From: Novosphingobium sp. 9U
Lineage (GTDB): Bacteria; Pseudomonadota; Alphaproteobacteria; Sphingomonadales; Sphingomonadaceae
Length of the DNA: 45,777 nucleotides
Direction: 5' to 3'
Assembly: GCF_902506425.1 (NCBI RefSeq)
Contig: NZ_LR732540.1
Coordinates: forward strand, 1-45,777
Position 1 is the stretch's first letter; every line of letters begins with the position of its first letter. Positions 8,959-24,067 of this stretch are shown here, in pieces. The notes beneath the pieces are model-generated. The model had not been told where the DNA came from. It saw only the letters and a program-made list of their open reading frames with translations, and did not search any database. A program made the translations under genes and the position numbers.

Positions 8959-9009
8959 CCATTTGCGAGGATGAGAAGCCGTTTCGATCGGCATGACCCT
9001 CCGATCACA

Positions 9010-9024
9010 TCATACAATCATACA
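9010..9024 (-). promoter_or_regulatory. Putative GntR operator, site A (upstream of MFS carrier)
   Basis: Plus strand shows TCATACAATCATACA; on the minus strand this is TGTATGATTGTATGA, containing the shared element TATGATTGT (9014-9022) and two direct TATGA half-sites 8 bases apart. It lies about 70 bases before the GTG of the carrier gene. Nearly identical to site B. Protein binding is inferred from recurrence only. Confidence 0.5.
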
Positions 9025-9095
9025 GACATTGACAGCCAGACCGCTCCATCTATCCTGAGCCTTGTGCATCGGCACGGCAAGAAGGGTGGTGCAGC

Positions 9096-10325
9096 GTGGG
9101 GTCGTCTGGTTTTCGCTCTTGGGCGATCGTCGTCATCAGCCTGCTGGGCATTTCCACGGGGCCTGCCGCGTTCGGCCTTTCGTCGATCGGGATCGCGTCC
9201 GAACAGCTGGCGCGCGAGTTCGGGTGGAGCCGCACCGCTATCAGCGCGGCCGTATCGGTGATGATGCTGTGCACCGCGGCCTGCATGCCGATCGCCGGCA
9301 AGCTGATCGACACGTATGGCGCGCGCCGGGTCTTGATCCCATCGGTGGTGATCCTGGCGGCGTGCACCGGCCTGCTCGGCTTCGTGCACAGCTACTGGCA
9401 GTTCATCGCGCTCTACGCCGGCATGGGCACGATCGCGGTTGGCACCAACAGCACCGCCTACATGCGCGTGATCACCAGCTGGTTCGATCATCGTCGTGGC
9501 CTGGCGATCGGCATCGCCGGCAGCGGCACCGGTCTTGGCTTTGCCTACGTGCCGTTGCTGAGCCAGGCGCTGCTCGATCACGGTGGCTGGCGCATGGTCT
9601 ACTTCGGTCTGGCCGGCGTGCTGTTGCTGGTGACCTTGCCGCTGGTGCTCATCGGCATCCGCGAGGCGGCCGCGCACGACGCCCCGCATGACCAACCCGA
9701 TGTGCAGCAGGGGCAGAGCGGCGACAGCATGGGCGCAGCCATGCGCAAGCCTGACTTCTGGGTACTCGGCTCGATCTTCGTGGTGCTTGCCTTCGTGCTC
9801 TACGGCCTGATCCCGCATCTGGTGCCGATGCTGCAGGACCGCGGCGTCTCCGCTGCCGACGCGGCGGGCATCGCCTCGCTGTTCGGCATGGCCGCGTTCG
9901 CCGGTCGCTTGCTGATCGGGTTCATGGTCGACCAGTACGACGCGCGGCGTATCGCCATCCTGTTCTTCTCGCTCTCCGCGCTCGGCCTGGCGCTGCTCGC
10001 GCTGCCGCTGCCGGTCTGAGCCTTCCTGCCGGCCGCATTGCTGCTCGGCGGAAGCTTGGGCGCGGAAGTTGACATGCTCGCGTATCTCACCAGCCGCTAC
10101 TTCGGCCTGCGCTGCTTTGCGCAGATCTTCTCGACGTTGTTCGCGGCAGTAATGATCGCGATGGGGCTGGGTCCGCTCGCGTTCGGCGCGGTGTTCGATG
10201 CGACCGGCTCGTACATCGCGGTGCTGGCGATTGGTGCGCCGATCTGCCTGGTGGCGTCGGGGCTGGTCCTGCTGCTCAGCCCTTATGGCCAGCGCGCGCG
10301 CGGCGGTCAGGTGTCGCTGACCTGA
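9096..10325 (+). pseudogene. MFS transporter of the monocarboxylate/oxalate-formate type, interrupted by an in-frame TGA
   Basis: The frame runs from GTG 9096 (GAAGGGTGG upstream) to TGA 10017-10019, and then continues in the same frame without any shift to TGA 10323-10325, about 408 residues plus the internal stop. The first part has eight or so membrane helices with MFS signatures (GKLIDTYGARRV between helices 2 and 3; GFMVDQYDARRIAIL in the second half). The part after the stop carries the family's GAEVDMLAYLTSRYFGLRCF motif and the last helices. So one base change separates two perfectly matching halves. It may be a recent pseudogene, a sequencing error, or a readthrough site. Site A upstream and the context suggest uptake of the island's aromatic acid. 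Confidence 0.8.
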
Positions 10326-10347
10326 GCTGCGTTTAGCGCGCAGAAAT

Positions 10348-10379
10348 AAGGGGAGCGCTCCGCGTGGAGCGCTCCCCTT
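10348..10379. terminator. Bidirectional intrinsic terminator
   Basis: Perfect 14-base arms AAGGGGAGCGCTCC (10348-10361) and GGAGCGCTCCCCTT (10366-10379) around a GCGT loop, with a short T-run on the plus side and A-rich sequence (AGAAATAA) before it for the minus side. It lies between the convergent carrier gene and the TauD-like gene. Confidence 0.85.
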
Positions 10380-10401
10380 TCTCTTTGCGGTCCAGCTGTC
10401 T

Positions 10402-11205
10402 TCAGGCGGCCTTCGCATCCTCGATTTGAACCCGGAAGCCCGAGCGGACCTGCGGATAGTAATCCCAGATCGCCAGGTGCTGGGTGCAGCGGTTGTCCCA
10501 GAACGCTACCGAGTGCGGCTCCCACTTGAAGCGGCACTGGAAACAGGCGTTCTCGACATGGCGGTAGAGGAAGTCGAGCACCGCTTCGCTCTCGGCCGGG
10601 GGGACTTCGTTGATGTGGCTGGTGAAGCCCTTGTTGACGAACAGCACCTTGCGGCCCGTCACCGGATGCTCGCGGATCACGGAGTGGGTGGAGATCGGGT
10701 ACGATCCGGTCGGGTCGAAACGGCCGAATGCCAATCGCCCGTCGTGCACCGCCGTCAGGCCTTCGAGGTAGTCCTTCATCCGGTCCGACAGCGCGTCATA
10801 GGCCGCGTACATGCTGGAGAACGCGGTGTCGCCGCCTTCGGTCGGCAACGTATGCAGATAGAGGATGCTGCCCATCGGCGGCTTGGGCGCACAGGTCATG
10901 TCCGAATGCCATTCTTCCCCTGCAACGTGCTTCGACGTCTCGTCGGCGTGGAGCTTGCGCACTTCGGGGTGATCCGGGAGCCCCTTCAGCGCATGCGCCT
11001 GCAGGTTGCCGAAGTGTAGGCCCAGGCGCTTCAACGACACCGGATCGAGCGGCTGGTTTCGGAAGAAGATTACCTGGTGGTCAGCGATCGCCTGGTGCAG
11101 GTCGGTCACCTGCTCGGCCGAGAGCGGCTGGGTAAGGTCGACGCCGGAGATGATCGCGCCGATGCGCGGGGTCAGCTTCTCGGCCGTAATCGTTGCGTAG
11201 GACAT
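10402..11205 (-). CDS. TauD/TfdA-family Fe(II)/2-oxoglutarate dioxygenase
   Basis: A 267-residue enzyme starting at ATG 11205 with GGAG 10 bases upstream. It shows the family's facial triad: H100 and D102 in EEWHSDMT and the distal H243 in DNRCTQHLAIWDYY; the 2-oxoglutarate-binding arginine is in QVRSGFRVQI. TauD/TfdA enzymes hydroxylate next to a heteroatom, cleaving taurine, aryloxyacetates or alkyl ethers/sulfonates, with 2-oxoglutarate turned to succinate. In this island it could remove a side chain or ether group from the aromatic substrate before ring attack. It is divergent from the amidohydrolase with putative operator site B between them. Confidence 0.88.
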   Translation of the reverse strand: MSYATITAEKLTPRIGAIISGVDLTQPLSAEQVTDLHQAIADHQVIFFRNQPLDPVSLKRLGLHFGNLQAHALKGLPDHPEVRKLHADETSKHVAGEEWHSDMTCAPKPPMGSILYLHTLPTEGGDTAFSSMYAAYDALSDRMKDYLEGLTAVHDGRLAFGRFDPTGSYPISTHSVIREHPVTGRKVLFVNKGFTSHINEVPPAESEAVLDFLYRHVENACFQCRFKWEPHSVAFWDNRCTQHLAIWDYYPQVRSGFRVQIEDAKAA

Positions 11206-11261
11206 GCAGGCTCCATCTAGGGTCGGCGCGGCAGCTTGGATCGCAGCATACCGCATTGCAC

Positions 11262-11275
11262 GTATGATTGTATGA
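11262..11275 (+). promoter_or_regulatory. Putative GntR operator, site B (TauD / amidohydrolase divergent region)
   Basis: GTATGATTGTATGA contains TATGATTGT (11263-11271) and two TATGA half-sites 8 bases apart, the same arrangement as site A on its minus strand. The following CGATAAT extends the similarity to site C read in reverse (TTGTATGACGAT). It lies 57 bases upstream of the TauD-like start and 53 before the amidohydrolase start. Confidence 0.5.
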
Positions 11276-11327
11276 CGATAATCTCAAGAACGCGCAAGTG
11301 GCGCGGGGCTCCTGTCGAGGTGAGGTT

Positions 11328-12650
11328 ATGAGGAAACATACAGCGCGCAAGTGGATGGTGACAGGGGTCGGACTGGCGGCGCTGATCGCCGGGCCGGCCC
11401 TTGCGCAGGACCGCGTGATCCATGCCGGACATCTGTTCGATGGGAACAAGCGGGTGATGCAGGGAGCGAGCTCGATCGTGATCAAGGACGATCGCATCGT
11501 TGCGGTTCAGCCTGGCTTCGTGACGCCCGCGGGCGCCGAGGTGATCGACCTCAGCGACGAGACCGTCCTGCCGGGGCTGATCGATGCGCACACGCACGTG
11601 ACCTCGCTGCCACGCACCGGCAACGCGATTGCCAAGACTATGACGTACTCGCCGCTCGACACCGCGCTGGCTGCGACGGTCAACACGCATGCGATCCTGC
11701 TCTCCGGCGTGACCACGGTGCGTGACCTCGGCGGGCTTTATGGTGCCGACATCGCGCTGAAAGCAGCGATCGAGCGCGGGTCGGTCGTGGGGCCGCGCAT
11801 GTGGGTCGCCGGCGAGGCGATCGGGCCGACGGGCGGTCATAACGACTGGAGCCATGGCCTCGCCTCCGATGTCAGCCGGCCCGAGTTCGGCGAAGGTCTG
11901 GCCGATGGACCAGACGCGGTCACCGCGCTTGCCCGGCGCGAGCACAAGCTGGGCGCCAACGTGATCAAGATCATGCCGTCGGGGGGCGTCGTCAGCAGTG
12001 GCGACGATCCCAAGGCCAAGCTGATGTCCGACGCAGAGATCAAGGCGGCCGCCGATACCGCGCACGCGCTGGGGCTGAAGCTGGCGGCGCACGGGCACGG
12101 CAAGGCGGCGATCGATGCCGCCGTGCGGCTGGGCGCGGATTCGATCGAGCACGGGACCTACGCCGATGCCGAGAGCTGGGCGCTGATGAAGGCGCACGGC
12201 ACCTACTTCGTTCCCACGCTGCTCACCACGCAGAAGCTCTACGACACCGCGCAGTCGCGTCCCGATGCGCTGACTCCTTCGACGCGCGCCAAGGTGCTGG
12301 CGATGGGCACGGGCAGCCAGAAGCTGACCAATGCCTACAAGGCCGGGGTCAAGATCGCCATGGGCAGCGACACCGGCGCGGGCGAGAACGTCAAGGAAGC
12401 GGCGCTGATGGTCAAGGCAGGCATGGCGCCGATGGACGTGCTGGTGGCGGCGACTGCGAACGGCGCCGACGTGATCGGCTCGGACGAGATCGGCAAGATC
12501 GCAGCCGGGCGTTATGCCGACATCGTTGCCACCAAGGGCGATCCGCTGGCGGACATGGCGGCAGTGGAGCGGATCGACTTCGTGATGAAGGGCGGCGTGG
12601 TCTACAAGCGAGGCGGCGTCGAGCAGCCGGCGTTGCTGGTGAATCCGTAA
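11328..12650 (+). CDS. Secreted metal-dependent amidohydrolase (prolidase/imidazolonepropionase-like)
   Basis: A 440-residue amidohydrolase-superfamily protein with a signal peptide (MRKHTARKWMVTGVGLAALI, cut after AQ at about 27). Metal ligands follow the superfamily pattern: H88 and H90 in LIDAHTHV, K214 in NVIKIMPSGG (probable carboxylated lysine), H255 in AAHGHG, H275 in SIEHGTYA and D348 in AMGSDTG. The C-terminal AAGRYADIVATKGDPL is the usual return to the small beta domain. Start ATG 11328 is preceded by GAGGTGAGG. Characterised relatives hydrolyse Xaa-Pro or other N-acyl/carbamate bonds. A periplasmic hydrolase in an aromatic island suggests release of the aromatic acid or amine from a conjugate before uptake; that is inference. 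Confidence 0.85.
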   Translation: MRKHTARKWMVTGVGLAALIAGPALAQDRVIHAGHLFDGNKRVMQGASSIVIKDDRIVAVQPGFVTPAGAEVIDLSDETVLPGLIDAHTHVTSLPRTGNAIAKTMTYSPLDTALAATVNTHAILLSGVTTVRDLGGLYGADIALKAAIERGSVVGPRMWVAGEAIGPTGGHNDWSHGLASDVSRPEFGEGLADGPDAVTALARREHKLGANVIKIMPSGGVVSSGDDPKAKLMSDAEIKAAADTAHALGLKLAAHGHGKAAIDAAVRLGADSIEHGTYADAESWALMKAHGTYFVPTLLTTQKLYDTAQSRPDALTPSTRAKVLAMGTGSQKLTNAYKAGVKIAMGSDTGAGENVKEAALMVKAGMAPMDVLVAATANGADVIGSDEIGKIAAGRYADIVATKGDPLADMAAVERIDFVMKGGVVYKRGGVEQPALLVNP

Positions 12651-12658
12651 GCTAAACC

Positions 12659-12791
12659 CCCCTCCTCTTCAGAGGAGGGGCGGGGGGTGGTGGCGGAGCA
12701 AGCCAAGGCGCTGTTCCGCGCACCACCCCGCTGCGACTAGGGCCTGCTACGTAGACCCTAGTCTCGCTGCCCCTCCTCTGAAGAGGAGGGG
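12659..12791. repeat. Composite palindromic intergenic repeat
   Basis: Fills the gap between two convergent genes. Two near-identical hairpins bound it: CCCCTCCTCT-TC-AGAGGAGGGG (12659-12680) and CCCCTCCTCT-GA-AGAGGAGGGG (12770-12791). Inside are two more complementary pairs, GGGGTGGTG (12684-12692) with CACCACCCC (12721-12729) and GACTAGGG (12735-12742) with CCCTAGTC (12756-12763). The whole unit can therefore fold as a chain of stems. It resembles REP/MITE-like extragenic elements and probably also ends transcription from both sides. Confidence 0.8.
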
Positions 12792-12800
12792 AGCTCAGGC

Positions 12801-13826
12801 CTATCCGCCCCGCGCCAGATCCAGCGCCACGTCGACGATCATGTCCTCCTGCCCGCCCACCATGCGCCGCCGTCCCAGCTCCACCAGGATTGCGCGGGTA
12901 TCCAGGCCATGATCCGCCGCCGCCTTCTCCGCGTGACGCAGGAAGCTGGAGTAGACGCCGGCGTAGCCCAGGCTCAGCGTCTCGCGGTCGACGCGCACGG
13001 GGCGGTCCTGCAGCGGACGGACCAGCGTCTCGGCGGCGTCCATCAGCTTGAACAGGTCGCAACCGTGCTGCCAGCCCTTGCGGTCGGCCGCGGCGACGAA
13101 GACCTCGAGCGGCGCATTGCCCGCGCCCGCGCCCATGCCGGCAAGGCTCGCGTCGATGCGGATCGCACCAGCCTGCACGCCGACCATCGAGTTGGCGACG
13201 CCGAGCGACAGGTTGTGATGCGCATGGATGCCGCGCTGCGTCTCGGGCTTGAGCGTGCGATCGTAGGCCTCGCAGCGCGCACGATAGCCGTCCATGTCGA
13301 GCGCGCCGCCGCTGTCGGTGACGTAGACGCAGTGCGCGCCGTAGCTCTCCATCAGGACCGCCTGCTGCGCCAGCGCATCGGGCTCGATCATGTGGCTCAT
13401 CATCAGGAACCCCGAGACATCCATGCCAAGGTCACGCGCGGCCATGATGTGCTGGCGCGCAATATCGGCCTCGGTGCAATGCGTCGCGACACGGACCGAA
13501 CGCACGCCCAGCGCATAGGCGTGCTTCAGCTCATCGATCGTGCCGATGCCGGGGATCAGGAGAGTGGTCAGCACACTGTGCTCCAGCACGTCCGCGACCG
13601 CCTCCAGCCACTCCCAATCGGTATGCGCGCCAAAGCCGTAGTTGAAGCTGGAGCCGTTGAGGCCGTCGCCGTGCGCCACCTCGATGGCGTCGACCTTCGC
13701 CTCGTCTAGCGCGCGGGCAATCGCCTGGACATGGTCGGTGCCGTACTGGTGCCGGATCGCGTGCATGCCGTCTCGCAGCGTCACGTCCTGGATGTAGAGC
13801 TTGGTCTGGGTGGGATCGAACACCAT
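12801..13826 (-). CDS. mhpE: 4-hydroxy-2-oxovalerate aldolase
   Basis: A 341-residue class II pyruvate aldolase of the DmpG/BphI/MhpE family. It cleaves 4-hydroxy-2-oxovalerate to pyruvate and acetaldehyde using a divalent metal. Visible landmarks are [11 protein letters not shown] (catalytic Arg and metal Asp), EVAHGDGL, and the metal-binding [13 protein letters not shown]. Start ATG 13826 overlaps the dehydrogenase stop by one base (TGATG), the usual coupling for this channelling enzyme pair, in which acetaldehyde passes directly to the partner. Length is normal for the family. The gene symbol is by family; dmpG and bphI are the same function. Confidence 0.95.
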
Positions 13827-14767
13827 CACACCGCCTCCCTGGCGAGCCGGCGCGCCGCGATCTTCTCCGCCGTCGCGAGCGCGGCCGAGGTCATGATGTC
13901 GAGGTTGCCGGCGTAAGCGGGCAGGTAGTGCGCCGCGCCTTCGACCTCCAGGAACACGGTGGTCTTGATGCCCTCGAACGTGCCGAGCCCGGGAATGCGC
14001 ACCGGATTGTTAGCGCCGAACCGCTCGAACTGCACCTTCTGCTTGAGGCGATAGCCGGGCACGTAGGCGGAGACTTGGGCCACCATCGCCTCCACCGCGG
14101 CCTCGATCGCCGCCTCGTCCGCGCCCGAGCTGAGCGTGAACACCGTGTCGCGCATCAGCATCGGCGGCTCGGCGGGGTTGAGCACGATGATCGCCTTGCC
14201 CCGTGCGGCGCCGCCGACTTGCTCGATGGCGCGGCTGGTTGTCTCGGTGAACTCGTCGATATTGGCGCGCGTGCCCGGCCCGGCGCTCTTCGAGGCGATG
14301 GAGGCGACGATCTCGGCATAGTGCACTTGCGCGACCGAGGCCACGGCCGACACGATCGGGATCGTCGCCTGGCCGCCGCACGTCACCATGTTGACGTTGC
14401 TTGCGCCCAGATGCGCGTCGCCGTTGACGACCGGGATCACGTAGGGGCCGATCGCCGCTGGCGTGAGGTCGATCATGACCTTGCCGGCCTCGGTCACCGC
14501 CGCGCTGTGCCGCGCATGTGCTCCGGCCGAAGTGGCGTCGAACACCATGCCGATCTCGGGCCAGACCGGCAGCTGGAGCAATCCTTCAAGGCCTTGCGCC
14601 GTCGTCGCCAGCCCCATGCGTTCGGCACGCGCCAAGCCGTCGGAGGCAGGATCGATGCCGACCATCGCCGCCATTTCCAGCACGTCGGAGTGCCGCATGA
14701 TCTTGATCATCAGGTCGGTACCGATGTTTCCGGAACCGATGATCGCCGCCTTGATGTTGCCTGCCAC
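13826..14767 (-). CDS. mhpF: Acetaldehyde dehydrogenase (acylating)
   Basis: A 313-residue DmpF/BphJ/MhpF enzyme that turns acetaldehyde, CoA and NAD into acetyl-CoA. Evidence: N-terminal Rossmann motif [13 protein letters not shown], the catalytic cysteine C130 in [14 protein letters not shown], and the family block [22 protein letters not shown]. The start is GTG 14767 (GAGGGGT just upstream), which gives the standard [11 protein letters not shown] beginning; the open frame continues to 14830 but through the operator. It forms an operon with the aldolase and is divergent from the aspartate-dehydrogenase-like gene, with operator site C between. Confidence 0.95.
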
Positions 14768-14812
14768 GCGCACCCCTCGGTCGTTGCATTGTCTCAGATG
14801 GAGCGTAAAAGA

Positions 14813-14829
14813 TGTATGATCGTCATACA
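14813..14829 (+). promoter_or_regulatory. Putative GntR operator, site C (best inverted repeat)
   Basis: TGTATGATCGTCATACA is a 17-base inverted repeat: perfect 7-base arms TGTATGA/TCATACA around TCG. It contains TATGATCGT (14815-14823). It sits between the divergent acetaldehyde dehydrogenase (start 14767) and aspartate-dehydrogenase-like gene (start 14845), and almost touches the Shine-Dalgarno AAGGAG (14829-14834) of the latter. FCD-type GntR regulators commonly bind short inverted repeats of this size; the link to the local GntR protein is inference. Confidence 0.6.
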
Positions 14830-14844
14830 AGGAGTTTTGGGCAG

Positions 14845-15657
14845 TTGAGCACGTCCGCTACCATCGGCATGATCGGCTTTGGTGCGATCGGCATGGAGAT
14901 CGCGAGCGCCCTCGATCGCCTTGGCGAGAGCGAGCGGCTGGTCGCGACACTTGTGCGCGAAGGGCGCGCCGCGCCGCGTGCGGTCCATACGGCACACGAC
15001 TTGCTGGGGGCGCAGCCCGGCGTGGTGATCGAATGCGCCGGGCATCAGGCGGTGCGCGACTATGTGCCGGCGTTGCTGGCCGACGGAGTGGACTGCATCG
15101 TGTCCTCGATCGGCGTGCTGGCGGACCCGGACATGGCCGCGATCCTGGCCGCTGCCGAGCAGGCCGGAGGCGGACGCCTGTTGCTTCCAGCTGGCGCGAT
15201 CGCGGGCCTCGATGGTCTTGTCGCGGCTGCGCTCGCCGGCATCAGCCAGGTGACCTACACTTCGTACAAGCCGCCGCATGCATGGCGGGGCACGCTGGCA
15301 GAGCAGGCGATCGATCTCGATGCACCGGCAAGCGAGCAGGTGTTCTTCGAAGGCACCGCGCGCGAAGCGGCCGCCGCTTATCCCAAGAACGCCAACGTCT
15401 CGGTGGCCGTGGGCCTCGCCGGCATCGGCATCGACGCGACCCGAGTGCGGCTGGTGTCCTCACGCGAGGTGAGCGATCCGGTAGGCGTGATCGAGGCGGA
15501 AGGCGCATTCGGGCGGTTCCGCTTCGACATTCTGGCGCTGGCCTCTCCCAGCAATCCAAAGACCTCGGCGCTGACTGGTTACAGCCTGCTGCAATGCGCG
15601 CGGCTTGGCGGCGCATGGCCGGTATTCGCAATGGCGTGTGCAGGACGGCAAGCGTAA
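14845..15657 (+). CDS. Aspartate dehydrogenase-like NAD(P)-dependent enzyme
   Basis: A 270-residue protein of the L-aspartate dehydrogenase (NadX-like) family: [14 protein letters not shown]ossmann motif at residues 9-22, then [27 protein letters not shown] and [19 protein letters not shown], which is the conserved AspDH block. The start is taken as TTG 14845 because AAGGAG lies 10 bases upstream; an in-frame ATG at 14812 overlaps operator site C and has no ribosome site. Known members oxidise aspartate to iminoaspartate or work in reverse. No nadA/nadC neighbours are present, so NAD synthesis is unlikely. Here it may handle an amino acid or imine from an N-containing aromatic; this is inference. 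Confidence 0.75.
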
Positions 15658-15661
15658 TACG

Positions 15662-15675
15662 GTACGACATCGTAC
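15662..15675. promoter_or_regulatory. Inverted repeat upstream of the GntR gene, possible autoregulatory site F
   Basis: GTACGA-CA-TCGTAC, perfect 6-base arms with a 2-base spacer, just after the aspartate-dehydrogenase-like stop and about 55 bases before the regulator start. It has the form GTAYGA...TCRTAC shared with site C but a C/G transition and a shorter spacer, so it may be a weaker variant of the same operator or something else. Confidence 0.35.
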
Positions 15676-15728
15676 TTGAAGCTGCCACGGTCCCACTGCT
15701 ACGCGAACGGTGAGAAGGAGAGGTCAAG

Positions 15729-16421
15729 TTGAACGTTGAAGATCTTCGCATCGTGGCTAATCCCACGCTGGTTCGTGAGCATGCGCTAGAGAAGATGCGC
15801 ACCGCCATCGCCACCGGTCTCTACAAGCCTGGAACGCGGCTAGTAGAGCGGGAACTGTGCGATGCGCTGGGCGTCAGCCGTACTTCAGTGCGCGAGGCGA
15901 TGCGCCAGCTGCAGTCCGAGGGCCTGATCGAGACCGGCGCACGCCGATCCATCATCGTCTCGGTGCTGAGTGCCGAAGACGCGTTCGACATCTATACGCT
16001 GCGCGAGATGACCGAGACCATCGCGATCCGCCGCCTGGTCGAACATGACGACGCCAAGGTGCTCAAGCGGCTACAGTCCGCCTACAAGGCGATCGTGAAG
16101 TATGCCGGAAAGGGCGATCTGCCGGCGCTCTCGGAAATGGCCGGGACCTTCTACGAAGAGATCCTGGACGGTTCGCGCAGCAAGGTCGTGCAGGAGACGG
16201 GCCGGCAATTGCTGAAGCGCGTCAGCTACTTGCGCCTGGTCTCGATGGGACAGCCCAAACGCGTCGAAGCCGGGCTCGAGGAGTGGGAAGCGATCGTCGA
16301 TGCCGTGGCGGCGGGCAATGCGGATCGCGCCGCCGAGACGCTGGGTGAGCACATCCGCAATTCACGCGATGCGATCGTCGCCAGCTTGCGCAAGCAGGAG
16401 CTGCAAACCGCCGGAGCTTAG
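15729..16421 (+). CDS. GntR-family transcriptional regulator, FCD/FadR type
   Basis: A 230-residue regulator. The N-terminal winged helix (about residues 15-80) has the GntR signature: LEKMRTAIATGLYKPGTRLVERELCDALGVSRTSVREAMRQL (residues near 20-61) followed by EGLIETGARRSIIV. The rest is an all-helical FCD-like effector domain with the opening EDAFDIYTLREMTETIAIRRLV. The start is TTG 15729 with AAGGAGAGG 5 bases upstream. FCD members typically sense carboxylic acids and repress catabolic genes. Its central position in the island and the repeated TATGATYGT sites around it make it the probable local repressor or activator. Confidence 0.92.
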   Translation: MNVEDLRIVANPTLVREHALEKMRTAIATGLYKPGTRLVERELCDALGVSRTSVREAMRQLQSEGLIETGARRSIIVSVLSAEDAFDIYTLREMTETIAIRRLVEHDDAKVLKRLQSAYKAIVKYAGKGDLPALSEMAGTFYEEILDGSRSKVVQETGRQLLKRVSYLRLVSMGQPKRVEAGLEEWEAIVDAVAAGNADRAAETLGEHIRNSRDAIVASLRKQELQTAGA

Positions 16422-16458
16422 CTTGTATGATTTTATGATTGTCATACAAACTAAGCTC
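16414..16458. promoter_or_regulatory. Putative GntR operator D inside a long 17-base-pair hairpin
   Basis: Arms 16414-16430 and 16442-16458 match at 16 of 17 positions (one C/A mismatch), with an 11-base loop. The left arm includes the stop codon of the GntR gene. The arms contain TGTATGA (16424-16430) and TCATACA (16442-16448); a further TTATGA half-site before TCATACA recreates the site C layout (T-TATGA-TTG-TCATACA) with TATGATTGT at 16434-16442. It lies just upstream of the FAD hydroxylase start (16473). It can act as operator and, as RNA, as a terminator-like stem between the two genes. Confidence 0.55.
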
Positions 16459-16472
16459 GTTAGTCTGGGTGC

Positions 16473-17711
16473 ATGACGACGACGCGAGCGGCTGCTTTAC
16501 AACGTGTGATGATCATCGGCGCCGGGCCGGTGGGATCGATCCTGGCCCTGGCGCTGCGGCAGCAGGGCGTGCCCGTGCTGCTGATCGACCAGCTCGCCGC
16601 GCCGGAGCGCGACTGCCGCGCCGCCTCTTGCCATCCGCCCACGATCGCGATCCTGGACCGGCTCGGGCTGCTGGACGATGGGCTGGAGCAGGGGCTGGTT
16701 TCGCCCGTGTTCCACTACCTCGACCGGGTCACGGGCGAGCAGGTCGGCCGCTTTGCGTTGCCCGAGATGCAGTCGCCCCCCGAGCATGCCTACGTGCTCC
16801 AGTGGGAGCAGTACAAGATCGCCGACACGGTCGCGGAACGGCTTGCGGCGGACCCAGAGGCTCAGATCCTGCGCGAGACCACGCTGCTGGGTCTCGAGCA
16901 GCAGGCCGACCGCGTGATCGCCACCGTGCGGCGCGGCGATGGATCGACCGAGCAGCTGGACGCGCCCTACGTGGTCGGTTGCGACGGCGGGCGCAGCACC
17001 GTGCGCAAGCTGTCTGGCATCGACTTCGAGGGCTTTACCTGGCCCGAGCGGTTCATCAAGATCGATACCCGCCACGACTTCACCACGCTCGGCCCCAAGA
17101 TCAGCAACCGCAACTACTTCTCCGATCCGGACGAGTGGATGAACCTGTTCAAGGCGCGGGGCGAGGACGGGTCGGGCATGTGGCGCGCAGTCAGCCCGAC
17201 GCTACCTGAGCAGGCGGACGAGGACCTGCTCTCGCCCGCGGCTATCGAGGCGCGGCTGCAGAAGTTCTGCCCCAAGCCCGGCACCTACGAGATCGTCACC
17301 GTGGCGCTCTACAACGTGCACCAGCGGATCGCCGCGACCTTCAACGAGGGGCGGGTGCTGCTGGCGGGAGACGCTGCGCACGTCAACAATCCGGTCGGCG
17401 GCATGGGCATGAACGGCGGCATCCACGACGCGATGAACCTGGCAGAGAAGCTGTCGATGATCCTGCACCACGGCGCCGAGGCCGAGCCACTGCTCGACCG
17501 CTACAGCCGTCAGCGGCGCAAGGCGCAGGTCGACGGCGTGCAGGCGCAGAGCATCGCCAACAAGCAGACCTTGGGCGAGAAGGACCCGGCCATCCGCGCG
17601 GCCAAGCTGGCCGAGATCGCGCATGCGTCGGCCACGCAGGACTTGCACGACGCCTTCATCCGGCGCGCCTGCATGATCGACAGCTACGCCGCCGCCGAAG
17701 CCACTCTCTGA
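16473..17711 (+). CDS. FAD-dependent aromatic hydroxylase (class A flavin monooxygenase)
   Basis: A 412-residue flavoprotein monooxygenase. It has GxGxxG in MIIGAGPVGSILALALRQQG, the class A DG motif in YVVGCDGGRSTVRK and the GD motif in GRVLLAGDAAHVNNPVGGMGMNGG. These enzymes add one oxygen from O2 to a phenolic or N-heteroaromatic ring using NAD(P)H. No ferredoxin or thioredoxin-like C-terminal domain (as in MhpA/PheA) is present; it ends soon after the FAD domain. The cupin gene follows after 14 bases. It could supply the second hydroxyl needed for ring cleavage, or act on a hydroxylated acid. The substrate is unknown. Confidence 0.88.
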   Translation: MTTTRAAALQRVMIIGAGPVGSILALALRQQGVPVLLIDQLAAPERDCRAASCHPPTIAILDRLGLLDDGLEQGLVSPVFHYLDRVTGEQVGRFALPEMQSPPEHAYVLQWEQYKIADTVAERLAADPEAQILRETTLLGLEQQADRVIATVRRGDGSTEQLDAPYVVGCDGGRSTVRKLSGIDFEGFTWPERFIKIDTRHDFTTLGPKISNRNYFSDPDEWMNLFKARGEDGSGMWRAVSPTLPEQADEDLLSPAAIEARLQKFCPKPGTYEIVTVALYNVHQRIAATFNEGRVLLAGDAAHVNNPVGGMGMNGGIHDAMNLAEKLSMILHHGAEAEPLLDRYSRQRRKAQVDGVQAQSIANKQTLGEKDPAIRAAKLAEIAHASATQDLHDAFIRRACMIDSYAAAEATL

Positions 17712-17725
17712 CCGGAGCCCTCGCC

Positions 17726-18247
17726 ATGCAGACCGCCCGCCACGCCCGCCCCGCCGAGATCGCCGACTGGTCGCTCGAGCAGATCATGGACCGCTACGTC
17801 GCCCGCTTTGCGGATCGGGTGCCGGACTGGAACGCGTTCTCCGACGCCAGCATCGAAGGCTATCACCGCGCACAGCACCGCTTCATCGGCGCGGGTGCCT
17901 CGGGCAAGCACGACGATGGCAGCGTGGTGCCCGCGGGCAACTTCACGCTTTCGATCATGCTGGTGCCGCCTGGGCAAGGCAACGCCGCCCACACGCATGA
18001 GGTGGAGGAGGTGTTCTTCATCCTCCAGGGCCGCTGCACGGTGTTCGTCGAGGACGAGGCGGGCACCCGGCTTTCGAAGGAGCTGGGCCCGTGGGAGCTA
18101 ATCTCGTGCCCGCCCGGCGTGATCCATGGCTATCAGAACGATACCGATGAGCCGTGTTACTTGCAGGTGGTTCTGGGGCGCGGCAAGCCGGAGGTCGCGG
18201 GATTTGCCGACCAGGCGCTGTTCGAGAAGCGTGAGGCGCATCTCTGA
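17726..18247 (+). CDS. Cupin domain protein
   Basis: A 173-residue single-cupin protein. The two cupin motifs are visible: AAHTHEVEEVFFILQGRCTVFVEDE (metal ligands His-His-Glu) and ISCPPGVIHGYQND (His). There is an N-terminal helical region of about 55 residues. It is in an operon with the FAD hydroxylase. Cupins in such clusters may be isomerases, dioxygenases or small ligand-binding helpers; the sequence does not decide. It is convergent with the LigB-like gene; the 245 bases between them hold no gene or clear terminator that I can see. Confidence 0.8.
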   Translation: MQTARHARPAEIADWSLEQIMDRYVARFADRVPDWNAFSDASIEGYHRAQHRFIGAGASGKHDDGSVVPAGNFTLSIMLVPPGQGNAAHTHEVEEVFFILQGRCTVFVEDEAGTRLSKELGPWELISCPPGVIHGYQNDTDEPCYLQVVLGRGKPEVAGFADQALFEKREAHL

Positions 18248-18492
18248 GGTGGGGGCGTCCCTGTCACACCCGTACTCCGTCAGTCCCGCGAAGCCGAATC
18301 CATCGCCTGGATCATTGGTTCGTCGCGCGCTGCTGCCCAAGCTGAGCGCGCCGCATAAGTTCGCCTCACTTCACCGTCAGCCTGTTCGAGAGCGCCAGGG
18401 ATAGATCCGCCCTCGTGGGGTCGACGAAGGTAGGTTAGGTGTGCGCGCTCTCCGCCCGCATCCCTGTGTCGACCGAACGGAGAGGGAAGAGG
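18248..18492. other. Convergent intergenic gap with no recognised feature
   Basis: 245 bases between the cupin stop and the LigB-like stop. I see no open frame with a ribosome site, no strong hairpin with a T-run, and no copy of the TATGATYGT element. Confidence 0.6.
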
Positions 18493-19305
18493 TCAGCCTG
18501 CGACCTTTAGCTCCACGCCCGCCATGCCTGTCGCCCAGGTCGGCATCGCCTCGTAGAACACCGCTTCGCCGCCAGCGCCACCGGCCGCTGCTGCAGCGAC
18601 GATCCAGGCGTTGATCTCCAGCCCACCATTGCCGGCGACCTCAAGGATTTCGGCATTGTCGCGCGCTGCCATGGCCGACAGGTCACCGGCCAGCACTTCG
18701 GCGAGGAAGGCCTGGTCCCAAGGCTCGTTGATCGTGCCTTCGCCCGGCATGCCGACCCAGTGCGACAGTCCGCCTGCGCCGAGCACGACCACCCTCTGCT
18801 CGCCCGGCAGTTGGTTCACATAAGCGCGCAGGACTTCACCCAGTTCGCGGCACTGTGCCGGGCTGGGCTCGGGATAGAACACGGTGTTCACGTAGAGCGG
18901 CACTGCCGGAATGCTGCGCGCGGGATCGACGATCCCGAGTGGGATCATCACGCCATGGTCGGGCTGGATGTCCTCGGCGGCCGAGATCTCGACACCCTGC
19001 GCGTCTGCGAAAGTCAGCAGCCCCGTGGCAAACTCAGGCGCGCCGGGGACGGGATCGCGCGGCAGGCCCATGTCGCCGAGCGGGTGAAAGGTCTCCGCCG
19101 TGCCAACCGCGAAGGGCGCCGGCGCCCCCAGGCTAAAGTTGTTGAGGTGATCGCTGGACACCACCACCAGCACGTCGGGCTCCAGCGCCCGGATGCGCCG
19201 GCCGATCTCGCGCATGCCCTGGAACACGCGCTCGGACTGCTCGTCGACCCCCTCAGGGCTACCGAGCTGGTGCGACATCGCGAAGGCGCCAACGATCTGG
19301 CCCAT
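18493..19305 (-). CDS. Class III extradiol ring-cleavage dioxygenase, large (LigB-type) subunit
   Basis: A 270-residue LigB-superfamily enzyme that opens catechol-type rings next to the diol using Fe(II). Iron and acid/base residues of the LigB fold are at the expected places: H12 in FAMSHQ, H53 in VVSSDHLNN, a catalytic His in GAGGLSHWVG and the iron Glu in NGGLEINAW. DHGVMIPL is another family block. It starts one base after the stop of the small-subunit gene. The order small-then-large and the following hydrolase logic recall CarBaBb of carbazole degradation more than LigAB of protocatechuate degradation, which has no hydrolase step. Confidence 0.9.
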   Translation of the reverse strand: MGQIVGAFAMSHQLGSPEGVDEQSERVFQGMREIGRRIRALEPDVLVVVSSDHLNNFSLGAPAPFAVGTAETFHPLGDMGLPRDPVPGAPEFATGLLTFADAQGVEISAAEDIQPDHGVMIPLGIVDPARSIPAVPLYVNTVFYPEPSPAQCRELGEVLRAYVNQLPGEQRVVVLGAGGLSHWVGMPGEGTINEPWDQAFLAEVLAGDLSAMAARDNAEILEVAGNGGLEINAWIVAAAAAGGAGGEAVFYEAMPTWATGMAGVELKVAG

Positions 19306-19306
19306 G

Positions 19307-19564
19307 TTATCTCCGGTCGAAGAAGTGGCTGATGGCGAAGAACGGCATGGTCGGCCGCCCCGACCAGATCAGCCACTTGATGACGTAGTTGCCGTGCACG
19401 CCCAGCTGCGAGATCTCGTCGCGGCTGCCTGTCAGGAGCACCGTGCGCTCATCCTCCGGCACTTGAAACCTGTCGAACAGCGCATCCGGTTCCGACTTCA
19501 CCAGGGCCCGGTCTTCGGGATGGCGTACCAGATGCTCGATCAAGGCGTGGACGGCGACGCTCAT
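19307..19564 (-). CDS. Class III extradiol dioxygenase, small (LigA-type) subunit
   Basis: An 85-residue, mainly helical protein of the LigA family (alpha subunit of protocatechuate 4,5-dioxygenase-like enzymes): AVHALIEHLVRHPEDRALVKSE..LFDRFQVPEDER and the closing GVHGNYVIKWLIWSG, equivalent to the GVHP motif of the family. It caps the active site of the LigB subunit. The start ATG 19564 overlaps the hydrolase stop (ATGA). It ends one base before the large-subunit start, so stoichiometric translation by coupling is likely. Confidence 0.85.
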   Translation of the reverse strand: MSVAVHALIEHLVRHPEDRALVKSEPDALFDRFQVPEDERTVLLTGSRDEISQLGVHGNYVIKWLIWSGRPTMPFFAISHFFDRR

Positions 19565-20385
19565 GCCGCCGGCTTGCCGAGGAAGCGCAGCACTGCGCCG
19601 CAGAAGTCCTCGGTCTGCTCGATCATCGCCCAGTGGCCGCAATGGGGGACGATGTAGCCCCAGCTGTTGGGCAGCAGCTCCAGGAAGCGATAGGCGCGCG
19701 GCAGGATCGAGACGCCGTCCTGCTTGCCGTTCACCACCAGCACCGGCTGGGTGATCGTGGTCAGGCGTTCCTCGTCGTAGTTCAGCGTGCCCTTGCGTGT
19801 CTCGGCGTTCACTGCCTCCAGCGCCGCCTTGGCTGCCTCGTCCTCGAGCAGTTGGTAGCGGTACTCCACCATCTCGCCCTGAGGCTCGTAGCCGGGCGCG
19901 GTGAGGCCGACGATGACGCGGCGCATGCCCTCGCGCGTGAAGTCGTAGTGCAGGGTCGCCGCCAGGTTGGGCGAGGGCTTGGGTGGGATCGGCAGACCGG
20001 CGCTGCCCATCAGCACCAAAGCCGAGAGCAGCTCTGGCCGGTCCAACGCCACGCCGATCGCGGTCGCACCACCCATCGAGTTGCCGACGATCGCCACGCC
20101 GGTGAGGCCCATAGCGTCGAGGAAGTCGGCCATGTGGCGGTTGCGGCCGGGCTGGTCGTAGACGTAGCTTTCCGGTGATGGCTTGTCGGTCTTGCCGAAG
20201 CCGATCATGTCGGGCGCGATCACCCGAAAATGGGGCGCGAAATGCGCGAAGCAGTCCTTCCAGTTGCCCCAGCTGTCCGCGCCAGCGCCGCCGCCGTGCA
20301 CCAGCACCAGCGGCGGACCTTCGCCCGCCTCCAGGTAGTGGGTGCGCACGCCATTCGCGTCGACGAAGTTCGAAGTGATCTCCAT
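19561..20385 (-). CDS. Alpha/beta hydrolase, meta-cleavage-product C-C hydrolase
   Basis: A 274-residue alpha/beta hydrolase of the MhpC/BphD/CarC type. Evidence: oxyanion loop VHGGGAGADSW (H30 onward), nucleophile S103 in GNSMGG, acid D223 in VNGKQDGVS and H251 in PHCGHWAMIE. GPPLVLVHGGG and DMIGFGKTDKP are typical of enzymes that hydrolyse 2-hydroxy-6-oxo-dienoates into a carboxylic acid and 2-hydroxypenta-2,4-dienoate. It lies between the Rieske oxygenase (11 bases) and the LigA-like subunit (overlap) in one operon, in pathway order. Confidence 0.9.
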   Translation of the reverse strand: MEITSNFVDANGVRTHYLEAGEGPPLVLVHGGGAGADSWGNWKDCFAHFAPHFRVIAPDMIGFGKTDKPSPESYVYDQPGRNRHMADFLDAMGLTGVAIVGNSMGGATAIGVALDRPELLSALVLMGSAGLPIPPKPSPNLAATLHYDFTREGMRRVIVGLTAPGYEPQGEMVEYRYQLLEDEAAKAALEAVNAETRKGTLNYDEERLTTITQPVLVVNGKQDGVSILPRAYRFLELLPNSWGYIVPHCGHWAMIEQTEDFCGAVLRFLGKPAA

Positions 20386-20396
20386 GCCCGTGCTCC

Positions 20397-21557
20397 TCAG
20401 CGCAGATCGATCTTCTGCTGGATGCCGCGACCATGGCGGCTGGCGAGGCGGCGCCAGGCGAGGATCGTCTCGTCCGGCTCGCACAGCATCTCGTCCACCC
20501 AGCCGTAGTCGTCGGCGTAGAACGGCTCGGTCACTTCGCGCGCCCAGATGTCGTCGCCGTTGAAGCCGTCGAGCGCGTGAGGCTTCCACGTCGCTTCGAA
20601 CTCGTTGGCGAAGTTCACCTCGTCCGCGGGCGTCGGGCAGTGCTTGCCGATCGTCTGCACGTAGAGGTGGCGGTCGGCATCGAGCGGCACGTACCACTCG
20701 AATTGCGTCAGCCCGCCGGTCGGAAAGCTGTCCACCTTGAGTACGCCGGGCAGCCAGATCGAGGTCCCAACCGAAGCCGAAGTCCCCTGCACCTGTGCCG
20801 AGCGCGGTCCGCTGACCACGATCTCGCCATCGATCACGCCGTCCCAGACGGGCTTGTGCTGCGCGAAGTCGTCCATCACGCCCTTGGGGCCGTCCTCCTC
20901 CTCGATCAGCTGCACTGCGCCAGGCAGCGGCGTGTGGCCGATCGGAAAGTTGAAGGTGCGGAAGTGGCGGAGCGTCGTGTCCTTGTGGATGAAGATGTGC
21001 AGCGCGTCGAAGCCGTTCTCCGCGCCCAGGCGCCAGTTTGAGTTCACGACGCGGTGCTTGCCCAGGATCATGACGTCATCGTCGAGGAAGCCGGGCGGCA
21101 CGTCCTTGGCAAGGTCGTGCAGCTCGTCCGCGTCGCCCAGGAACACGAAGATCAGGCCCTTCGCCTCGGTGGCCGGGTAGGTGACGATCTTGCGGCGGTT
21201 GATCAGCTTGCTCTCCGGCACCGCCAGGATGTTGACCAGCTCACCGGTCTGAAACCGGTAGGTGTAGCCGTGGTACCAGCAGGTGATCGTGTCCTTGGTG
21301 TAGCAGTCGGGCTTCTTCGACAGCGGCACGCCGCGATGCAGGCAGCGGTCGCGCATGGCGTAGACCTTGCCCTCGATCCGCTTGAGCAGCAGCCGCTCGC
21401 CCAGCAGCTCGATGACTTCCAGCTGGCCCTCGCCCAGCTCCTTGGAAAAGCGCACCGGGTACCAGTGATTGCGGAAGCCCAGCTTGGCTTCGACATAGCC
21501 CTTCCAATCGCCGACCATGCTGACGACTTCGGGATTGACCAGCGGCTCTTCGTTCAT
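20397..21557 (-). CDS. Rieske non-heme iron oxygenase, CarAa (carbazole 1,9a-dioxygenase)-like terminal oxygenase
   Basis: A 386-residue oxygenase. Rieske cluster ligands are C72/H74 (RCLHRG) and C93/H96 (TCWYHG). Mononuclear iron ligands are H187 and H191 in ENGFDALHIFIHKD with bridging D184, and an Asp in NGDDIWARE (about 335). From memory the protein resembles CarAa strikingly: KLGFRNHWYPV, TITCWYH, SIWLPGVLKV, QFEWYVP and the end AWRRLASRHGRGIQ have close counterparts there. CarAa-type oxygenases are single-subunit homotrimers and no beta-subunit gene is found here, in agreement. Substrates of relatives include carbazole and 2-oxo-quinoline. It needs an electron donor, probably the reductase at 22439. 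Confidence 0.92.
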   Translation of the reverse strand: MNEEPLVNPEVVSMVGDWKGYVEAKLGFRNHWYPVRFSKELGEGQLEVIELLGERLLLKRIEGKVYAMRDRCLHRGVPLSKKPDCYTKDTITCWYHGYTYRFQTGELVNILAVPESKLINRRKIVTYPATEAKGLIFVFLGDADELHDLAKDVPPGFLDDDVMILGKHRVVNSNWRLGAENGFDALHIFIHKDTTLRHFRTFNFPIGHTPLPGAVQLIEEEDGPKGVMDDFAQHKPVWDGVIDGEIVVSGPRSAQVQGTSASVGTSIWLPGVLKVDSFPTGGLTQFEWYVPLDADRHLYVQTIGKHCPTPADEVNFANEFEATWKPHALDGFNGDDIWAREVTEPFYADDYGWVDEMLCEPDETILAWRRLASRHGRGIQQKIDLR

Positions 21558-21583
21558 CGTAGTGTCCTCGGAAGGTAGGATTT

Positions 21584-22369
21584 TCAGCGGAAGGAGGTGG
21601 CGACAGTGCCAAGACCCTCGATGGTGGCGTGCACCGCGTCGCCGGGAGAGACGGGGCGCATCGGGCCCAGCGCTCCGGTCAGGATGACCTCGCCCGCGCA
21701 CAATGGATGGCCGAGTGCGTGGCTGGTGCGCGCCAGCCAGGCCGCGGCATTGAGCGGGCTGCCCAGGCAATCGCGGCCATGGCCTTGCGAAACGGTCTCC
21801 CCGTTGATCGTCATGGTCATCGCGCAGTTCGCCAGGTCCAGTCCATCGAGGCGCCGCGCCGGTCCGCCCAACACGACCAGTCCAGCCGAGGCATTGTCCG
21901 CCACGGTGTCGAGAATGCCGATCTTCCAATCGGCGATGCGGCTGGCGACCACTTCGAGCGAGGGCACCGCGTAAGCGGTCGCGGCGATCACGTCGGCCAC
22001 CGTGGCGTTCGCCATATCGAGGTCGGCACCCAGGATCAGCGCGACTTCGGCCTCGATCCGCGGCTGGCGCAAGTCGGCATGATCGAGCACCGCATTGTCG
22101 CCGAAGACCATGTCGTCGGTGAGATGGCCGAAGTCCGGCTGGTCGACGCCGAGCTGGCGCTGCACTGCGGGCGAGGTCAGCCCGATCTTGCGACCCACTA
22201 CGCGGCGACCTGCCGCAAGCCGTCCCCCGATCTGCAGCAACTGCACTTCATAGGCCTGCGCGATATCCGCCAGGCCTTCCGCAACAGGCGCGATCGGCTG
22301 GCCTTGGTATGCCTCGGCAAGGCGCCGGGCGATATTCGCAGACGATTGTGAAGCAACAGATTCGTTCAC
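21584..22369 (-). CDS. mhpD: 2-keto-4-pentenoate hydratase (2-hydroxypenta-2,4-dienoate hydratase)
   Basis: A 261-residue MhpD/DmpE/BphH-family enzyme that adds water to 2-hydroxypenta-2,4-dienoate to give 4-hydroxy-2-oxovalerate, the aldolase substrate. Landmarks are [31 protein letters not shown], the metal-binding [11 protein letters not shown], and NPLN-like [13 protein letters not shown]. The start is GTG 22369 after AGGGGAAGAGC; the frame opens further upstream through operator site E. It is first in the five-gene operon hydratase-Rieske-hydrolase-LigA-LigB and is divergent from the reductase. Confidence 0.92.
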
Positions 22370-22388
22370 GCTCTTCCCCTGTATTCGA

Positions 22389-22402
22389 TATGATCGTATG
22401 AC
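22389..22402 (+). promoter_or_regulatory. Putative GntR operator, site E (hydratase / reductase divergent region)
   Basis: TATGATCGTATGAC contains TATGATCGT (22389-22397), with two TATGA half-sites 8 bases apart, and is followed by AAAC as in site D. It is in the 69-base gap between the divergent hydratase (start 22369) and reductase (start 22439), so it could control the Rieske/LigAB operon and the reductase together. Confidence 0.5.
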
Positions 22403-22438
22403 AAACATTCACCCTGCTTGTCGAGGAGGAAGTTCACG

Positions 22439-23434
22439 ATGTTTCGCGCCACGTTGCAGTTCCAGGATGGCGGATCGTTCGAACTCGATGTTCCCGAGGG
22501 GCGAACGCTGGTCGAAGCCGCGCTCGAAGCCGAGGCGCCGCTGCGGTCTGACTGCATGAGCGGCACCTGCGGCTCATGCGTCGGGCGGCTGCTGCGCGGC
22601 GAAGTGACGCGCGACCCAATGGATCAGTCGATCGTCAGCGAAGACGAGGCGGCGGCAGGCATCTACCCGACCTGCCTGACCCGCCTGGGCTCGGACGCGC
22701 GGTTCGAACTCGATTACCCACTCGATCCTTGCCCCAGTCCGCCGACGCGCATGCGCGCAGAACTGGTGTCGAGCGAGCGTGTAGCGACGACGGTGTCACG
22801 GCTGGTGATGCGGGTGGACGATCCGGACGCTTTCCGCTTCCAGCCGGGCCAATACTTGCGGCTGCGCCCGCCTGGCCTGCGTGTAGCACGTGCCTACTCG
22901 ATCGCTTCATCGCCGGCCTCGCTTCCGCTCGTCGAATTGCTGATCCGCCATGTCCCCGGCGGGCAGGTCAGCGGATGGCTCGACGGGGACGCTGCAATCC
23001 CCGGGGCGACGATGACCCTGCAAGGGCCGCTTGGCGGATTTGCGCTCGACGACCGGACCGGCCGCGCGGTGTTCGTCGTGGGCGGAACCGGACTCGCGCC
23101 GGCCATGGCGATGATCCGCGCCCATGCCGGGCGGCTGCCGATGCTGCTGTGCTTCGGCTGCACGCGGCCAGAGGAGCTGTTCCTCCATGACGAGCTGCGC
23201 GCGCTCGAGGCAGCGACGCCGGGCCTGGAGGTGCGCGTGGCGCTGATGGAAGGCGCCTCGGGCACCATCCGCGCGGGCACGGCCGTGGCGCTGCTCGCGG
23301 GCGATCCGGTCGCGGGATCGAGCTATCACTTGTGCGGCCCCCCGGCGATGGTGGATGCCGCACGCGCGGCCTTGCGCGCCGAAGGGGTCGGTCCCGAACG
23401 CATCCGCGCCGAACGATTCGCCGTCGGCGGCTGA
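22439..23434 (+). CDS. Ferredoxin-NAD(P)H reductase for the Rieske oxygenase (BenC-type fusion)
   Basis: A 331-residue fusion: an N-terminal plant-type [2Fe-2S] ferredoxin domain with C39, C44, C47 and C79 (SDCMSGTCGSC ... YPTCL), an FAD-binding barrel with RAYSIASSP (about residues 150-160), and a C-terminal NAD domain with VVGGTGLAPAMAM and the ending HLCGPPAMVDAAR. This is the layout of single-component reductases such as BenC or XylZ, which pass electrons from NADH to a Rieske oxygenase without a separate ferredoxin. The start ATG 22439 has GAGGAGGA 8 bases upstream. CarAa itself uses a separate ferredoxin and reductase, so this pairing differs from the carbazole system. Confidence 0.92.
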   Translation: MFRATLQFQDGGSFELDVPEGRTLVEAALEAEAPLRSDCMSGTCGSCVGRLLRGEVTRDPMDQSIVSEDEAAAGIYPTCLTRLGSDARFELDYPLDPCPSPPTRMRAELVSSERVATTVSRLVMRVDDPDAFRFQPGQYLRLRPPGLRVARAYSIASSPASLPLVELLIRHVPGGQVSGWLDGDAAIPGATMTLQGPLGGFALDDRTGRAVFVVGGTGLAPAMAMIRAHAGRLPMLLCFGCTRPEELFLHDELRALEAATPGLEVRVALMEGASGTIRAGTAVALLAGDPVAGSSYHLCGPPAMVDAARAALRAEGVGPERIRAERFAVGG

Positions 23435-23975: not shown

Positions 23976-24067
23976 TGGCGGAGACGCCGGGATTCGAACC
24001 CGGGGTGCCCCCTTAAGAGCACGACGGTTTAGCAAACCGCTGGTTTCAGCCACTCACCCACGTCTCC
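23976..24067 (-). tRNA. tRNA-Ser (anticodon GCU)
   Basis: Reading the minus strand, the acceptor arm GGAGACG (24067-24061) pairs with CGTCTCC (23986-23980), followed by G and an encoded CCA (23978-23976). The anticodon stem-loop CGGTTTGCTAAACCG has anticodon GCT. A long variable arm follows, as expected for serine tRNAs, and the T arm holds GGTTCGAATCC. Decodes AGC/AGU. No integrase or repeated tRNA end is seen nearby. Confidence 0.97.

Follow-up and report, generated by a model that had tools for sequence, protein, structure and literature searches.

The aromatic island and its repeated element

The DNA studied here, referred to as the window, is the stretch of 45,777 nucleotides from position 1 to 45,777 of contig NZ_LR732540.1 of Novosphingobium sp. 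9U. Between 9096 and 23434 it carries an island of aromatic-degradation genes that includes a gene for a GntR-type regulator with an FCD domain, and the nine-base sequence TATGATYGT recurs between these genes. An initial annotation had taken the repeats for operators of this regulator. All five copies were recovered in position and strand, and no sixth copy was present in the window. By gene order, every transcription unit from 9096 to 23434 is headed by one site, as had been proposed. The sites are given first, with their best scores in the matrix scan described below, followed by the genes.

Site A, 9003..9027, minus strand: direct form; upstream of the interrupted major facilitator superfamily (MFS) gene; lowest matrix score among the five sites, 22.5
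Site B, 11258..11282, plus strand: direct form; between the TauD-like gene (minus) and the amidohydrolase gene (plus); matrix score 27.1
Site C, 14810..14834, plus strand: inverted form; between the acetaldehyde dehydrogenase-aldolase genes (minus) and the aspartate dehydrogenase-regulator genes (plus); matrix score 25.1
Site D, 16423..16453, plus strand: inverted form; before the hydroxylase-cupin genes; matrix score 39.7
Site E, 22384..22408, plus strand: direct form; between the hydratase-Rieske oxygenase-orf375-LigB operon (minus) and the reductase gene (plus); matrix score 30.5

9096..10019, plus strand: MFS carrier; in-frame stop after 307 residues, the frame being open again beyond
10402..11256, minus strand: TauD-like dioxygenase (PRK09553, E 1e-75, below the cut-off)
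11328..12650, plus strand: amidohydrolase (Xaa-Pro dipeptidase-like)
12801..13829, minus strand: 4-hydroxy-2-oxovalerate aldolase (TIGR03217, above the cut-off)
13826..14830, minus strand: acetaldehyde dehydrogenase (TIGR03215, above the cut-off)
14845..15657, plus strand: aspartate dehydrogenase (PRK13303 subfamily, above the cut-off); proposed TTG start, open reading frame listed from 14812
15729..16421, plus strand: GntR/FCD regulator (PF00392 and PF07729), the proposed binder of sites A to H
16473..17711, plus strand: flavin adenine dinucleotide (FAD)-dependent aromatic hydroxylase
17726..18247, plus strand: cupin (PF07883)
18493..19305, minus strand: LigB-type extradiol dioxygenase (PF02900)
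19307..20434, minus strand: orf375, flanked by the LigB and oxygenase genes; without a match in Pfam or NCBIfam
20397..21824, minus strand: Rieske oxygenase of the carbazole 1,9a-dioxygenase type (PF11723; 4nb9/1ww9, E ~1e-131)
21584..22336, minus strand: 2-oxopent-4-enoate hydratase-like protein (PRK11342, E 7e-97, below the cut-off); proposed start, overlapping the oxygenase reading frame
22439..23434, plus strand: ferredoxin-NAD reductase-type electron transfer protein; ATG at 22439, open reading frame listed from 22418

The listed reading-frame starts overlap sites C and E. Alignments and sequences resembling ribosome sites suggest later starts for aspartate dehydrogenase (14845), the reductase (22439) and the hydratase (near 22336), which would make both sites intergenic. 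The acetaldehyde dehydrogenase probably starts near 14785, and the TauD-like gene probably about 50 bases later than listed, its relatives aligning from residue 15 to 20. Proteins related to the MFS carrier (region 9096 to 10400) have 409 to 422 residues, and the weakest site, A, stands before this gene; its interruption may be real decay or a sequencing error. Among solved structures, carbazole 1,9a-dioxygenase is nearest to the Rieske oxygenase. A GntR-type regulator, CarR, occurs in the carbazole clusters of sphingomonads near the gene for an oxygenase of this type.

Frequency of the nine-base element

Shuffled windows contained 0.12 copies of TATGATYGT on average, and none of 100 shuffles reached five. 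The initial annotation had named a genome-wide count as a check on its proposal. In the 4.64 Mb of the genome we counted 15 copies, and the reversed pattern gave 5. The density of the ten copies elsewhere predicts 0.03 for the 13.4 kb of the island, where five were found (Poisson P ~2e-10), an enrichment of about 170-fold over the rest of the genome. TATGATYGT is strongly enriched in the island yet not specific to it, and was rejected as a sufficient motif.

Architecture of the sites

Searches recovered an orthologue of the regulator in five other genomes, namely G368 (83% identity), G422 (76%), G460 (67%), Pacificimonas aurantium (locus L029, 63%), which belongs to the Sphingomonadales, and a Brevundimonas metagenome-assembled genome (L030, 57%). 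G440 is the same place as L029 and was counted once. With the present genome, these make up the six regulator genomes.

The core of the sites is the palindrome TYGT-NNN-ACRA, where the centre ATG or CAT is the same centre read on opposite strands. For the training of a matrix, 37 oriented rows were taken from the five regulator genomes other than this one, some inverted sites giving two rows. YGT-NNN-AC is present in 36 of the 37 rows and the remaining one has AT; in the ACRA half, A18 is conserved in 37 rows, C19 in 36, A20 in 35 and A21 in 27. This conserved half was absent from the initial annotation, as were the in-frame stop of the carrier gene and the three sites on contig C1 described below. 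At site A the core is degenerate, with GTATGAT in place of GTATGAC.

Beside the core, an accessory GTATGA (with at most one mismatch) lies 8 bp away on one side, in tandem with the nearer core half. When 44 partly overlapping rows with YGTATGAC were counted, the box was found at 8 bp 26 times (11 left, 15 right), compared with 9 times over the 17 other offsets from 6 to 23 (3 left, 6 right, four of the right ones at 16 bp). A second count used 45 core rows, with three in-gene core matches dropped and the L141 site and the L137/L138 boundary sites included. Here 29 rows had the box with at most one mismatch, 10 had it with two and 6 were without it, and in none of the 45 was it present on both sides at the former threshold. 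Site D has a third unit 8 bp further left, so that the array covers 16423 to 16449; a third unit at 16 bp was found in four of the six genomes, once with a mismatch.

The repeat forms had been described correctly: C is an inverted repeat, D nearly so, with the further unit on its left, and A, B and E are direct repeats at 8 bp. Since a box at one end of the core gives a direct appearance and a box at the other end an inverted one, the mixed geometry that the initial annotation had ascribed to the binding reduces to two forms of one arrangement, a palindrome with a one-sided box. The unit recognised is probably this palindrome with its accessory half-site and not TATGATYGT.

The pattern TATGATYGTNNNAYR has seven exact matches in the genome, namely sites A to E, a further site F at C1:889341 and C1:1126273. 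The last has another centre, GAG, and was rejected with a best matrix score of 0.1 at its locus. Two other candidates were discarded, C1:2396676 (2.9) and C1:2518889 (16.7, by eye without a box at 8 bp). TATGATYGT is also present at C15:17016, where the best score of the locus was 12.9. The nine-base core YGTATGACR failed as a sufficient motif, with 33 matches in this genome and 36 for the control; the five other regulator genomes had 26 to 59 matches and 12 to 34 for the control, and most of the matches listed were outside the clusters. For the longer TYGTATGACRA, 19 of 22 matches in four regulator genomes were in the clusters, and the reversed control gave one.

When the window was scanned with the matrix, the top 16 rows all overlapped sites A to E, the 16th scoring 5.9, whereas the maxima of 40 first-order Markov windows had a mean of 8.1 and a highest value of 17.7. 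The training rows were chosen with a pattern learned from the window, so the matrix is not fully independent. As nothing else in the window exceeded 5.9, the sugar module and the core genes on either side lack the element, in agreement with the initial annotation. The scan of the window revealed no site directly upstream of the regulator's own start; such a site is present in G368 (with a two-mismatch box) and in G422 (with a GTGTGAC core). Among the distant regulator loci L031 to L104, 35 hits scored above 10, all in five loci of 46 to 51% G+C, where the median of the 69 loci L031 to L099 is 67.5%; we took these hits as background. At a Megasphaera locus of 45.5% G+C (L087:10902-10936), a single example, TGTATAATTGTATGATAATCAT occurs in 8-bp steps about 300 bp after an FCD regulator of 31% identity.

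Conservation with the regulator and the gene set

With this genome included, the regulator was found in 2 of 396 at the level of the order (E up to 1e-30); with E up to 1e-40, the counts were 4 of 397 for the family and 1 of 385 for the class. The DNA fetched for all six clusters contains the genes for the MFS carrier, TauD, aspartate dehydrogenase, the regulator, the FAD hydroxylase, the cupin, LigB, orf375 (in G460 by an 81-residue match only), the oxygenase and the reductase. The amidohydrolase gene is present in four clusters (not in the L029 or L030 DNA fetched), the aldolase-dehydrogenase pair in five (not in that of G460) and a block with asparaginase and ferredoxin genes in five; the block was not seen in L029, where the flank was fetched only partly.

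Each of the six clusters has a site at C, D and E. The 16 bp of box and core are 98% identical across the six genomes at site E, with 20-bp flanks of 38 and 40%, and 98% at site D, with flanks of 47 and 38%. Site C is 78% identical (flanks 33 and 29%) and site F, in five genomes, 83% (flanks 38 and 30%); the rows were taken at sites already found, and the within-site identity is partly chosen. The form is also kept, E being direct in 6 of 6, D inverted in 6 of 6, C inverted in 5 of 6 and F inverted in 4 of 5. In G368, the counterpart of site B likewise stands before the amidohydrolase gene.

An ATG or CAT centre was found in 22 of the 26 TATGATYGTNNNAYR matches in the six genomes, each of the 22 lying inside a cluster or a detached part of one, and in 16 of 19 when this genome was left out. 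For a control, 58 other genomes of the genus were analysed, and none of 19 matches had this centre; a search for the regulator (E up to 1e-20) gave matches in 5 of the 58, at only 27 to 35% identity. The element and the regulator co-occur in six genomes.

A probable regulon in separate blocks

In G368 the reductase gene is followed by genes for an asparaginase, a Rieske ferredoxin, a gamma-glutamyltransferase, a second MFS carrier, a TonB receptor and an SBF-like transporter. Sites occur in the gap that separates the asparaginase and ferredoxin genes and in the one that separates the carrier and receptor genes. In the present genome the asparaginase-ferredoxin block lies on contig C1 at about 888 to 897 kb and has three sites, F, G and H (matrix scores 35.7, 22.8 and 27.5), which head the genes for the Rieske ferredoxin, the asparaginase, the second carrier and the TonB receptor. 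With tblastn (E 1e-10), no reading frame of the C1 block, the ferredoxin included, matched anything in the window, so the ferredoxin of the oxygenase may be the distant one on C1. In G422, a different block, with the MFS, amidohydrolase and TauD genes, lies at a distance of 33 kb, with a site beside its MFS gene. The sites are kept in the detached blocks and follow the genes and not the position. The proposed regulon of the FCD-type GntR protein is thus wider than the island.

The gamma-glutamyltransferase, asparaginase, amidohydrolase, aspartate dehydrogenase, ring hydroxylases and meta-cleavage enzymes might point, as a guess, to an aromatic compound joined to an amino acid. About 540 bp past the last island gene, a tRNA-Ser gene (23976-24067, minus strand) faces the island with its 3' end; no repeat of its last bases, at a length of at least 12, was found elsewhere in the window.

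A single regulator, as had been claimed, holds for this genome but not for all relatives, since a second FCD-type GntR gene stands beside tauD in four of the six clusters. These are G368, P. aurantium, the Brevundimonas genome and G422, where the second protein is 43 to 48% identical to the L029 copy and the DNA upstream of tauD (L129, L029, L030 and L141) has GTATAC half-sites. The present genome (11200-11260) and G460 are without the second gene and without GTATAC and have the core of the present regulator beside tauD. From this distribution it seems that tauD passed from one regulator to the other in an apparent regulator exchange.

The regulator and known GntR systems

The island regulator consists of an N-terminal winged helix-turn-helix domain (PF00392, 59.9 bits) and a C-terminal FCD domain (PF07729, 73.2 bits), both above the cut-off, and belongs to the FadR (FCD) subfamily. 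In the five orthologues, the helices at residues 36-68 are 85 to 97% identical to it and the FCD domain 47 to 81%. Histidines of the FCD domain serve as metal ligands. In an alignment by eye, the FH and EH of relatives correspond to FY, FN or LY and to EW here; two of the usual ligand histidines seem replaced by Y or N and by an invariant W in the six orthologues, and the last histidine is kept.

Operators of the FadR subfamily are described in PMC4494728 as palindromes with GT and AC 2-3 nt apart, and additional half-sites occur beside them, 7-12 nt from the centre, with a function left to further experiment. The predicted sites have the same GT-N3-AC palindrome and one half-site about 8.5 nt from the centre, at the peak of the offset count. 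The additional box described there has on average about half the weight of the true half-sites, whereas here its conservation at D and E equals that of the core, the 8-bp phase is strict and the form is kept at each promoter.

For Escherichia coli YieP, the motif obtained by chromatin immunoprecipitation with exonuclease digestion (ChIP-exo; PMC7642389), atTTGTaTGAcaAAT, equals the core found here. YieP also has GntR and FCD domains, and its recognition helix reads VSRTAVREA, compared with VSRTSVREA in the island regulator. Over the helices 36-68, YieP is 48% identical to the island regulator and the five FCD paralogues of this genome 36 to 42%. YieP differs in that its winged helix-turn-helix and FCD domains are only 42 and 18% identical and other genes are controlled, and an accessory box is not mentioned in the accessible parts of PMC7642389 and PMC11340327. 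E. coli NanR likewise has closely spaced tandem repeats with several dimers side by side, but on (GGTATA)3 instead of a palindromic core, and its cooperativity needs an N-terminal extension of 32 residues (PMC8012715). The island regulator has only about 16 residues before the winged helix-turn-helix, which begins near residue 17, and lacks such an extension.

Interpretation of the sites

The FCD-type GntR protein whose gene lies at 15729-16421 very likely has sites A to E as its operators. With the three C1 sites added to these five of the island, its predicted regulon counts at least eight. The comparative evidence supports this assignment of the initial annotation. We infer binding and repression by the regulator, release by a ligand and a role of the accessory box. 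One dimer would bind TYGT-NNN-ACRA with ATG or CAT in the centre, and the GTATGA at 8 bp would let a second dimer or an extra contact join, by which the box probably raises the affinity. Repression that a ligand relieves is the mode of most GntR-type factors (PMC11340327). Once bound, the regulator would cover the promoters, and transcription on both sides of the divergent units would be repressed, at site C including the regulator's own aspartate dehydrogenase operon. Release would come from an intermediate of the pathway, perhaps an acid of aromatic or ring-cleavage type. A bolder possibility, which we regard as doubtful, is an array of overlapping dimers in 8-bp steps that does without the N-terminal arm of NanR, where the promoter-specific form and the side of the box would set the strength or the order of induction along the pathway.

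Several points weigh against this assignment. The training sites were chosen with a pattern learned from the window. By itself, YGTATGACR does not exceed its control in this genome, and TYGTATGACRA also occurs outside the clusters, once in this genome and twice in Pacificimonas. The core of site A is degenerate, 10 of the 45 core rows have only a two-mismatch box and 6 have none, and the rows of the offset count overlap in part. Moreover, the core could be common to this regulator and some G000 paralogues or cluster-linked regulators.

The recognised unit could instead be TATGA, a flexible dimer accepting direct or inverted repeats 8 bp apart. Such repeats are present in both arrangements, and NanR and NagQ are examples of GntR proteins with direct repeats as their sites (PMC4494728). 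We consider this unlikely, as sites of the direct form also conserve the ACRA beyond TATGA, the AC of the core is replaced by AT in the left unit, and the published YieP motif is the palindrome alone (PMC7642389). That TATGAT is a shared sigma-70 -10 element and only the adjoining palindrome an operator is quite improbable. It resembles TATAAT, a TTCACG-18-TATGAT pair at site E scores 9 of 12, and at D and E it reads toward the hydroxylase or reductase gene in all six clusters. Promoter-like pairs, however, number 2 in the region versus 1.7 by chance, the box occurs on either side of the core and at site A reads away from the only downstream gene, and the third unit at 16 bp is not a -10 element. 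At D and E, TATGAT may have a double role as operator box and -10 element.

Very improbably, another regulator binds the sites, either an FCD paralogue or the product of the AraC-type gene beside the C1 block (L131:15886). This genome has five other FCD genes, and L143 shares 38% identity with YieP across 157 residues. Over the helices 36-68, however, the five paralogues are less similar to the island regulator than YieP is, and the island GntR gene is present in all six site-bearing clusters, whose regulators were not catalogued exhaustively. Chance, or inherited repeats without function, would agree with the frequency of the nine-mer and the nine-base core elsewhere, at or near control level. 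It is hardly credible in view of the conservation of sites versus flanks, the 8-bp phasing and the retention of sites in detached blocks.

Significance

Taken together, the sites are very probably a conserved and clean example of an operator type that is known but unexplained, a GntR operator with an additional half-site. A literature search, made mostly at the level of listings and mostly outside subscription journals, gave no description of the regulon or the gene set. The assignment of the sites to the GntR regulator would give a little-described aromatic-degradation gene set a regulon of at least eight predicted sites and would connect the oxygenase, which has no ferredoxin gene beside it, with a Rieske ferredoxin gene on a different contig. 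The form conserved promoter by promoter would offer a natural case for the role of the additional half-sites described in PMC4494728.

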